Source: an uncultured Selenomonadales bacterium (lineage in GTDB: Bacteria > Bacillota > Negativicutes > Selenomonadales > Selenomonadaceae). From it: a DNA stretch of 64,000 nucleotides. Positions 35,550 through 38,857 of this stretch are shown one piece after another. The position numbers were made by a program, and so were the translations under genes. Position 1 is the stretch's first letter. Each line of letters starts with the position of its first letter. Under the pieces are notes generated by a model. The model saw nothing but the letters and a program-made list of their open reading frames with translations. It was not told where the DNA came from and did no database searches. Location of the stretch: positions 1 to 64,000 of the forward strand of contig CAMUZG010000007.1 in assembly GCA_947165145.1 (NCBI GenBank), read 5' to 3'.

Positions 35550-35578
35550 TTGAAAAATTTTTAAGCGTGTGGTAACAT
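35550..35578 (+). promoter_or_regulatory. candidate promoter of small RNA/sORF locus
   Basis: TTGAAA-N17-TAACAT. Confidence 0.5.
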
Positions 35579-35650
35579 TCGACGCGTTGAACTTGCGCAG
35601 TCCACGGACGGGCGGAGCAGTCAATCAGCCCCCGAAAGGGGGGAATAATC

Positions 35651-35713
35651 ATGCTGAGGATGATCATTATGGTTATGGTGATTCTTTGGCTGTTAACAAA
35701 TACAGCCTCGTAA
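35651..35713 (+). CDS. 20-aa hydrophobic peptide MLRMIIMVMVILWLLTNTAS (type I toxin-like candidate)
   Basis: ATG 35651 after purine-rich AGGGGGG, stop TAA 35711; single TM-like. Confidence 0.4.
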   Translation: MLRMIIMVMVILWLLTNTAS

Positions 35714-35793
35714 GCTTTCCCACAAGCTTCAGAGGCTGAAATCTCCTGTAACACCTACAATTATTACGGGGGTAAGACTGCTTTAATCAAGTT

Positions 35794-35822
35794 CGGGCGT
35801 CCTCGGACGTCTTATTTTTTTT
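35794..35822 (+). terminator. terminator of the small RNA locus
   Basis: cgggcgtcc-tc-ggacgtct hairpin (GU-containing) followed by TTATTTTTTTT. Confidence 0.65.
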
Positions 35823-35856
35823 GCCGATGAAAATTTATCACAAGCTGTTTGCAATG

Positions 35857-37050
35857 TCAATCGGCAAGACCAGCCGCCTGTCGAAGTGCTTGAGCCTTGT
35901 CTGTGCGTTCCCACGGAAAATCAACGTCCGTTCTGCCGAAATGACCGTAAGCCGACGTTTGACGGTAAATCGGGCGACGCAAGTCAAGCATCTTGATTAT
36001 ACCGGCGGGACGCAAATCGAAATGTTCCTTGACAAGCTGTTCAATTCGCGATTCGTCGATTTTGGCGGTACCGTGACTGTCGACGCGCACGCTAACAGGA
36101 TAAGCGACACCGATTGCGTAGGCAAGCTGAATTTCGCATTCATCAGCCAAACCTGCCGCGACGATATTTTTCGCGACGTAACGGGCAGCATAGGCAGCAG
36201 AACGATCAACCTTCGTGGGGTCTTTGCCGCTGAAAGCTCCGCCGCCGTGACGAGCCCAACCGCCGTACGTGTCGACGATGATTTTTCTGCCCGTCAAGCC
36301 GCTGTCGCCTTGCGGACCGCCGATAACGAATTTGCCTGTCGGATTGACGAAAAATTTTGTCTCAGCCGTCATCAGTTCAGCGGGGACAATCGGTTTAACA
36401 ACGTACTCAATCATGTCGCGTTTAATCTGCTCCAACGAAACGTCAGGGTTGTGTTGCGTTGAAATGACAATCGTATCGACCGCGACGGGCTTGCCGTCCT
36501 CGTAAGCAATGGTGACTTGCGTTTTTCCGTCGGGGCGAAGGTAGTCGACTTCGTGCGTGACTTTGCGAACTTCAGCCAGACGACGTGCGAGCTTGTGCGC
36601 CAATGAAATCGGCAACGGCATAAAATCAGGCGTGGAATTCGTCGCGTAGCCGAACATCATGCCCTGGTCACCGGCACCGATTGCGTCTTCGATAGCCATA
36701 TCGCCTTCACGCGCCTCAATCGATTTGTTGACGCCTTGAGCAATGTCGGGGCTTTGTTCGTCCAACGAGACGAGTACGCCAACGGTGTCCGCGTCGAAGC
36801 CGTAAGCCGAATTCGTGTAGCCGATGTCGCGAATTGCGCCGCGAATGATTTTCGGAATGTCAACGTAGCATGTAGTGGAAATTTCGCCGACGACGTGCAC
36901 TTGACCCGTTGTAACTAGCGTTTCGCAAGCGACACGACCGTTAGGGTCTTGCTCTATGATTTCATCAAGAATACTGTCGGAAATTCTGTCCGCGACTTTA
37001 TCGGGGTGTCCCTCCGTCACGGATTCGGAAGTAAATAAAACTCTGCGCAT
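35857..37050 (-). CDS. metK: S-adenosylmethionine synthetase
   Basis: [70 protein letters not shown]. Confidence 0.98.
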
Positions 37051-37133: not shown

Positions 37134-38129
37134 TCAGAAGACAGCCTCAATGGTGCCGATAATTTCTCCGCGATGATTCTTCAGCACAGGCGGGAAAAGT
37201 TTATCGAGTTCGGCGGATTCGTCTTTTGTCAGCAAGTCGAGATATTTAAGCAAGGCGATTGTCATTGGCGTGACCGTCGAAAAATCACCGTCCTCAACCT
37301 TGAACGTGATGCCCAAGTCGCCGTCCTTGACCGCCATACAAAAGACCGCGTCGCTGCCGATTTTGGCGATGATTCTGCCGCCCGTGACCGTTGGAACAGC
37401 GCAATCGATTCTGCCAGTGCCCGCGACAATCTGCGGGTAGTTGCTCATTGCGTCGCGAATTTTCGTTGCGGCGGGTTCGTAGTCTCCCCAATCGCCTTTG
37501 TTCGGCGTGGACAGTCTGGCGTAAGCGAGCGACATGTTGTAAATCGGCAGATAGAACACGGGCACGCCGCAGCCGTCAATGCCGATTTCGAGTTTGTCTT
37601 CGGGCATACGCGACGCCATTGCTACGTGCTTGAAGATGATTTTCTGCGCGGGGTGTTCGGGGCGAATGTAACCCGACACGTCGACGCCGAGCATCATTGC
37701 CAGTGCGATTATCTGCGAATGTTTGCCGGAGCATTGATTGTGCGCCGCAGTGATCGGTTCGCCTGACAGCAACAATTTTTTGTAAGCTTTGCCGTTCAAC
37801 GGACGCAGGACGCCGCAATCCAAAACCGATTCGTCGAGACCAAGCTTTGATAAAATTCCGCGAACAAGTGCGACGTGATTTTCTTCGCCGCTGTGACTCG
37901 ATACGAGCAAAGCAAGTTCTTCGTCGGTTATGTTGTAACGTTCAAGTCCGCCGTTTTTCACGAATGCAAGAGCTTGAAACGGTTTTGCGGCACTGCGCCA
38001 GAACATCGGCAGTTGAGCGTTGCCAATCGACGCGACGACTTCGCCTTTGCAATTGACCGCAACGGCGTCTCCGCGATGAATGTTTTCGACGTGACCTGCG
38101 CGGGTGTAATGCAATAAAACTTCACTCAT
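37134..38129 (-). CDS. L-asparaginase II family (COG4448-like)
   Basis: [68 protein letters not shown]. Confidence 0.87.
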
Positions 38130-38572
38130 GGTTGTTGCCCCCTAAAAAATTCTTCGTTTAAATCTTCAAGAATCACGCAATGTAATTCTTCAAATTGGCG
38201 GAGCTGTTTGTCATTGGTTAAAAACAAATTGCAACCCGTGACGCAAGCCGTTGCCAGTTGCAAAGAATCCGCTGTCTTGAAATATGCATGACTTGCTCGA
38301 ATTTGCGACGCCTTAACGGCCGTGAATTCGTCGATTTCATGAATTTTTATACCGCACGCGTCGAGAAATTCCCAAAAAATATTTATCGCCTGCTTGTTGT
38401 TCGTGCGATAGGGAAACACCAGATATTCCATGCAAGTTATCGTTGACGTGACGAATTCAGCTTGACGATTTAAAAGTCGCGAGAAAATTTGCTCGGCTGT
38501 TGGGCGCAACGGAGATTTTTCGTCAAGTAGATAAATTATCGGCGAGGTATCGACAAAAATTTTATTTTCCAT
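38126..38572 (-). CDS. vapC: PIN-domain toxin (VapC family)
   Basis: IFVDTSPIIYLLD; FKTADSLQLATACVTGCNLFLTNDKQLRQF. Confidence 0.88.
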   Translation of the reverse strand: MENKIFVDTSPIIYLLDEKSPLRPTAEQIFSRLLNRQAEFVTSTITCMEYLVFPYRTNNKQAINIFWEFLDACGIKIHEIDEFTAVKASQIRASHAYFKTADSLQLATACVTGCNLFLTNDKQLRQFEELHCVILEDLNEEFFRGQQP

Positions 38573-38777
38573 CTGAGCGCAAATCCTTTATGTAATTTTC
38601 TACCGCCTCGACGCTACCGAACATATCGCCGCCGCGACCAGAATATTTGTTTAAATCGATTTCTTTTTTTGGCGTTGGCGAATTTTCTCTCGACAGTATC
38701 AGCTGAATAATCGAGTAAAGTTTTTCTTCGGGAACCGATTCTATCAGTTTGAAGGCTTCTTGTCTCAAGGGCGACAT
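38562..38777 (-). CDS. cognate antitoxin (VapB-like)
   Basis: 71-aa ORF overlapping vapC start; MSPLRQEAFKLIESVPEEKLYSIIQLI. Confidence 0.7.
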   Translation of the reverse strand: MSPLRQEAFKLIESVPEEKLYSIIQLILSRENSPTPKKEIDLNKYSGRGGDMFGSVEAVENYIKDLRSDGK

Positions 38778-38857
38778 AAAAATTCCTCCTTGCAAAAAAA
38801 TAAGGTCGAGTCCGCAAACTCAACCATTGTCACTTCCTCAAAAAATTTTAAACAAAC

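Follow-up and report, generated by a model that had tools for sequence, protein, structure and literature searches.

In an uncultured member of the Selenomonadaceae from the rumen, a short open reading frame (sORF) sits between two housekeeping genes, those for a lipid A acyltransferase (Lip_A_acyltrans; lpxL-like) and the S-adenosylmethionine synthetase (metK), both located on the minus strand, which raises the question of whether the sORF encodes the toxin of a type I toxin-antitoxin system and, if so, where the antitoxin is to be sought. The original prediction, made from the window (the whole 64,000-nt stretch of DNA that was analysed), had suspected a type I toxin, had seen no antisense antitoxin and had not recognised the family. 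The suspicion is supported in kind by homologous copies, covariation in the stems and purifying selection on the sORF, whereas the statement on the antitoxin did not hold. According to a 2025 paper, few phyla are known to have type I systems, and discovery has been biased by searching for relatives of those already described (PMC12390103); in the literature, we found no described type I system from the Negativicutes, of which the Selenomonadaceae are part. None of the protein and RNA libraries tried detects the family described here, although about 140 copies of it exist in a single rumen genus of the Negativicutes.

Layout of the putative toxin gene

The elements named in the original prediction, i.e. 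promoter, SD hairpin, sORF, stop-codon hairpin, conserved stretch and terminator, were all found where it had placed them. Together with the arms of a long-distance interaction, they are arranged as follows:

35550-35578, plus strand: toxin promoter, TTGAAA (35550-35555), N17, TAACAT (35573-35578), scored 9/12
35589-35595, plus strand: outer 5' arm of the long-distance interaction, GAACTTG, partner 35788-35794, from the minimum-energy fold
35615-35622, plus strand: inner 5' arm of the long-distance interaction, GAGCAGTC, partner 35776-35783, from covariation
35629-35642, plus strand: SD hairpin CCCCC-GAAA-GGGGG, with the anti-SD CCCCC at 35629-35633 and the SD GGGGG at 35638-35642
35651-35713, plus strand: putative toxin sORF MLRMIIMVMVILWLLTNTAS, ATG at 35651, 20 codons for 20 aa
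35703-35738, both strands considered: interrupted stop-codon hairpin, spanning the stop codon, from double-sided changes and a covariation scan
35739-35767, no strand assigned: fast-diverging part of the 3' UTR from the stop hairpin to the 3' arm, from pairwise identities
35768-35794, plus strand: 3' arm, with GGGGG at 35768-35772 (complementary to the anti-SD), GACTGCTT at 35776-35783 and CAAGTTC at 35788-35794
35795-35822, plus strand: toxin mRNA terminator, 96% of cells paired in the window's subfamily

The toxin promoter has a moderate -10 element in the window (TAACAT), and transcription would start near 35585. This set of elements exceeds chance, as the folding energy of the 237-nt transcript was -89.1 kcal/mol (z = -5.2) and none of 200 shuffles reached as low a value; the order of the elements is the same in the homologous copies of the genus. 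The stretch GGGGGTAAGACTGCTTTAATCAAG (35768-35791), which had been noted as looking conserved, corresponds to the 3' arm in a 5'-3' long-distance interaction.

A peptide family within one uncultured genus

The original prediction had hinged on homologous intergenic copies elsewhere, and such copies were readily found. In a first DNA search, 13 of 61 genomes yielded copies, and all 13 belong to the same genus; the window's own genome had a second one, and the genome G017 had three arranged in tandem. A hidden Markov model of the peptide had matches in 44 of 66 genomes of this one uncultured Selenomonadaceae genus, while in 315 other genomes of the class it gave one weak match (E = 0.0036), and this sole match outside the genus is likely to be due to chance. 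According to a pattern scan of named genomes, the hosts are uncultured and belong to the Selenomonadaceae or Selenomonadales; several came from ruminant rumen or other gut samples. The window's own genome was seen to carry at least three further family copies, L145 (G000:C3), L099 (G000:C20) and L015 (G000:C21). All comparisons below are based on a set of 141 non-redundant copies that were extracted from fetched loci.

The peptides are hydrophobic and 20-28 aa in length, as exemplified by MLRMIFLVVIILWLLTNTAS and MFKIIIRVVILTGIILWALTKTAA. That the family had not been recognised before agrees with the library searches: Rfam gave nothing credible, whether over the window at the gathering threshold or over the locus with E values of up to 10, and 28 members had no credible match in Pfam and NCBIfam, including the models of Ibs/Sib, Ldr, Fst, Hok, TisB and TxpA-type toxins, in a test whose power is limited by the weakness of the filters at such short query lengths. 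An origin from a mobile element was considered and rejected, as the conserved motif had no exact match in viral contigs and there was no match in plasmids.

Selection on the short reading frame

With the initial codon and the six final codons omitted, pN/pS (Nei–Gojobori, related pairs) amounted to 0.27 in the 20-aa form, 0.37 in the 24-aa form and 0.29 in the 26-aa form; with the six final codons counted, it was 0.28–0.41. The constraint on the sORF for which the original prediction had suggested looking is thus present (0.27-0.41), and the codon statistics indicate that the peptide is coding and under purifying selection. An SD hairpin of the same type precedes the reading frame in 129 of the 141 copies. 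With an SD and purifying selection in a family of 20-28 aa, the locus appears to specify a small hydrophobic peptide of the kind expected of a toxin.

The strong structure of the RNA and its covariation might also be taken to mean that the function resides in the RNA itself, as a structured regulatory sRNA whose short ORF is incidental. We regard this as highly improbable, as pN/pS is low over codons outside the antisense terminator as well, the hydrophobic character is kept at 20-28 aa, and the SD is in place in nearly all copies.

A predicted antisense gene behind the toxin terminator

The original prediction had found no antisense antitoxin. A near-consensus promoter on the minus strand is, however, conserved directly behind the toxin terminator, just outside the interval that had been considered, and three elements can be assigned to a predicted antisense gene:

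35832-35860, minus strand: antisense promoter, TTGACA (35860-35855), N17, TAAATT (35837-35832), with an extended -10 TG, scored 10/12
35694-35702, minus strand: putative antisense terminator U-tract TATTTGTTA, running through the codons for L-T-N-T, from synonymous bias
35694-35825, minus strand: predicted antisense antitoxin RNA of about 130 nt, from the promoter-to-terminator interval, on sequence grounds only

In a promoter scan, this site was the better of two promoter-like sites in the region (10/12 vs 9/12), and the antisense RNA would start near 35825. Across the family, 89% of 135 copies have a promoter scoring at least 10/12 on the minus strand, downstream of the toxin stop, compared to 1.3% of dinucleotide shuffles; in the relatives, the spacer is nearly always 17 and the promoter mostly lies 115–135 nt off the stop codon. 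A sense promoter of at least 10/12 occurs in 83% of 138 copies and in 0.3% of shuffles, and the antisense promoter is therefore as strong as the sense promoter across the family (89% vs 83%). About one fifth of the copies are without an antisense promoter at the usual place. Many of these have a promoter further downstream or a second antisense unit behind, several promoter-less toxin copies being followed by a second, antisense-only unit, and an intact toxin with neither an antisense promoter in range nor a second unit was encountered only about once (L195). Conversely, six antisense-only copies have lost the 5' half of the toxin and kept the antisense promoter (9-10/12, spacer 17), and in L003 the toxin is frameshifted and the antisense side is still present.

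Another candidate for the antisense promoter lies within 35760-35791 on the minus strand, TTGATT-N18-TAATAa, from which an RNA of about 60 nt would be made. The site is nearly invariant in the window's subfamily, and TANNNT is mildly enriched there across the family; most of this conservation is, however, explained by the arms of the long-distance interaction, and other subfamilies have no good promoter at this position, whereas nearly all retain the downstream one. The internal site is thus an unlikely promoter. In the form TTGATT-N18-TAATAT it had been our first candidate, until the family-wide promoter count pointed to the downstream site instead.

Starting from the downstream promoter, the antisense RNA would probably end at the stop-codon hairpin, which on the minus strand is likely to form the stem of its intrinsic terminator. 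A terminator at this position is suggested by the codon choice, which fits the antisense U-tract: for Lys within the U-tract, 67 of 72 copies use AAA, whereas this codon makes up 40 of 96 internal Lys codons (p = 7e-13), and for Thr, 93 of 121 copies use ACA as compared to 80 of 232 comparison codons (p = 2e-14). This bias at the end of the reading frame looks like synonymous selection by the overlapping terminator. The U-tract TATTTGTTA of the window is imperfect, and the antisense RNA might therefore read through. With a start behind the toxin terminator and an end at the stop hairpin, the antisense RNA would be complementary to the 3' UTR over its full length and to the last codons, so that the locus has what is predicted to be an antisense RNA gene overlapping the toxin mRNA. 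Taken together, we consider it probable, at roughly 85%, that the locus is a chromosomal type I toxin-antitoxin system of a previously undescribed family.

The -35 element of the antisense promoter (35855-35860 in the window) overlaps the end of metK, and readthrough from metK could therefore also supply antisense RNA. In six copies (L096, L117, L128, L156, L206 and L017), a toxin-less second unit of stop hairpin and antisense gene is fused directly behind the toxin terminator, and in these the antisense RNA may cover two target modules.

Covariation and the fold of the toxin mRNA

In a structure-free covariation scan of 126 aligned copies, the top pair joined the 5' arm and the 3' arm in the inner helix (99% paired), and the stop hairpin accounted for the second and further top column pairs (99% and 89% paired). 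Covariation in the stems, which the original prediction had proposed as a check, is thus present in the stop-codon hairpin and in the long-distance pairing. Within the window's subfamily, double-sided changes affect five pairs of the stop hairpin and four pairs of the inner long-distance helix. The outer helix with the arm GAACTTG is paired in 96% of cells there and has zero double-sided changes; in other subfamilies, the outer arms are different but complementary, e.g. GCTTGA/TCAAGC. When the structure was given, 10 double-sided pairs were counted in the window's subfamily as compared to 5.8 expected, and every slid version did worse. Cognate arms paired at a mean of -25.7 kcal/mol as compared to -21.6 for arms swapped between copies, and within the window's subfamily none of 5000 permutations reached the observed mean; both statistics ignore kinship among the copies. 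The advantage of the cognate arms is missing in one of four crude groups.

The 3' arm also covaries with the anti-SD. An anti-SD CCCTC is accompanied by GAGGG in 12 of 15 copies and CCCCC by GAGGG in 1 of 84 (Fisher p=6e-12, not corrected for relatedness), and the variant classes CTCCC/GGGAG, CCTCC/GGAGG and GCCTC/GAGGC agree with this covariation; the SD itself stays G-rich while the anti-SD varies. It is suggested by this pattern that the anti-SD and the 3' arm form part of an RNA switch. A divergent subfamily (L144, L147, L183, L188, L193 and relatives) has the arrangement GCGGTTGC...CACTTCC-GAAA-GGAGGTG with a 3' GAGCAACCGC arm, and this 3' arm is a poor fit to the anti-SD.

Folding closed the SD by its own hairpin in nascent, truncated and most full-length RNAs, and the SD is thus predicted to be occluded in the primary toxin transcript. 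We also considered that the complete mRNA might simply expose the SD as the 3' arm takes the anti-SD. The folds do not favour this: when the anti-SD was forced into that pairing, the median difference was +2.6 kcal/mol against it, staying within 3 kcal/mol in 59% of copies, and the freed SD tended to be captured by the 3' UTR. As the SD is closed in most full-length folds and mostly paired in the alternative fold, its opening is not accounted for by the energy model.

A possible two-state switch

Based on these data, the following mechanism might be proposed. The plus strand would give rise to an mRNA of about 235 nt, from which a 20-aa peptide, predicted to be of membrane type, is translated, and the minus strand to the antisense RNA of about 130 nt that starts behind the toxin terminator and stops at the stop-codon hairpin. 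The toxin mRNA would protect itself in two ways, as the anti-SD hairpin would close the SD as soon as it is made, and the 5' and 3' ends would pair once the molecule is complete. The 3' arm would hold a second partner for the anti-SD strand, which could therefore choose between the SD and the 3' end of the same molecule, so that the full-length mRNA would be silent with a poised exchange between the two partners. Most likely, the antisense RNA would bind the 3' UTR and capture the 3' arm, leaving the anti-SD on the SD, and the duplex would then presumably be cleaved by an RNase. Upon loss of the antisense RNA, the mRNA would be remodelled, the peptide would be made and the membrane would be damaged. 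Expression, the direction of the switch, RNase cleavage and toxicity are all inferred in this scheme. That the toxin mRNA is a two-state switch with a novel layout, in which the anti-SD has a co-evolving 3' partner and the antisense RNA, as a copy of the 5' arm, decides between the states, the last toxin codons doubling as the antitoxin terminator, is a tentative reading to which we assign somewhat less than even odds. How a toxin mRNA stays silent until it is complete has usually been approached by structure probing. Here, covariation among natural variants speaks directly for a 5'–3' interaction and for two alternative partners of the anti-SD, and the large number of these variants makes the question testable with chosen natural arm pairs.

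Comparison with known type I systems

In Bacillus subtilis, SR4 binds the 3' end of the bsrG mRNA, alters the structure around the SD and leads to cleavage, and TxpA has a length of 59 aa (PMC8167048). As in TxpA/RatA and BsrG/SR4, toxin and antisense genes are convergent here and overlap at their 3' ends, a likeness in layout only, which was read from the positions of promoters and terminators and implies no homology; similar to BsrG/SR4, antisense binding at the 3' end is proposed to alter the structure around the SD. In contrast to TxpA, the putative toxin is 20-28 aa in length and has no Pfam or NCBIfam sequence similarity, and, unlike in both Bacillus systems, covariation links the 3' arm to the anti-SD strand, and the predicted antisense terminator lies within the last toxin codons.

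In AapA/IsoA of Helicobacter, a local hairpin closes the SD during transcription and a 5'-3' long-distance interaction forms in the full-length mRNA, the 3' end of AapA3 supplying an anti-SD that pairs with the SD (PMC6733600). The present family similarly combines a small hydrophobic peptide, many loci, an SD hairpin and a long-distance interaction. Here, however, the 3' G-run would pair with the anti-SD, i.e. the opposite strand, rather than provide an anti-SD as in AapA3; in addition, the antisense gene overlaps the 3' end, and no similarity in sequence was seen.

The Ibs peptides of Escherichia coli are hydrophobic, about 19 aa in length and encoded in multiple and tandem copies, and the Sib RNA spans the whole ibs ORF. 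The very short hydrophobic peptide and the multiple or tandem copies are shared with the family described here, a general resemblance rather than the outcome of a test. In contrast to Sib, the predicted antisense RNA ends at the stop-codon hairpin and would not cover the whole ORF, unless it reads through.

Divergence, arrays and decayed copies

Among pairs with similar ORFs, identity was 0.86 in the ORF, 0.54 in the region corresponding to 35739-35767 and 0.79 in the 3' arm, and the divergent 3' UTR region fell below the identity of the ORF in 98% of 454 pairs. This fast-diverging part is likely to be the specificity region of the antisense RNA. In two tandem copies of G017, the peptides are identical and the 3' UTR region differs. 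Arrays of three toxin units were observed at L138 (G017:C12), L139 (G015:C70), L141 (G017:C3) and L002 (G017:C45), mostly with a spacing of ~310-370 nt and with differing peptides or 3' UTRs.

Decay is also apparent in some copies. The lpxL–metK neighbourhood occurs in only three genomes among the 30 fetched loci (G000, G029 and G061), all three with a copy or a remnant, and no empty lpxL–metK site was found among these loci. The copy of G029 at this site has ACG in place of ATG, TGA in place of a Trp codon and has lost the region of the antisense promoter; the copy of G030 is frameshifted.

The same RNA anatomy would also be expected if the product were a small membrane protein under antisense control that benefits the cell rather than poisoning it, e.g. 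in the stress response, and purifying selection together with upkeep in 44 of 66 genomes would be in line with such a role. The family is, however, patchily distributed, forms tandem arrays and often leaves pseudogenes or antisense-only remnants; these features are better suited to a dangerous product, as are the several layers by which translation would be closed, and a benign function appears unlikely to us compared to that of a type I toxin.

A second toxin-antitoxin pair may be located close by. At 38126-38795 on the minus strand of the window, a PIN-domain protein (PF01850) is encoded directly behind a 77-aa ORF, which looks like a VapBC-type type II system at a distance of 2.3 kb from the putative type I module.
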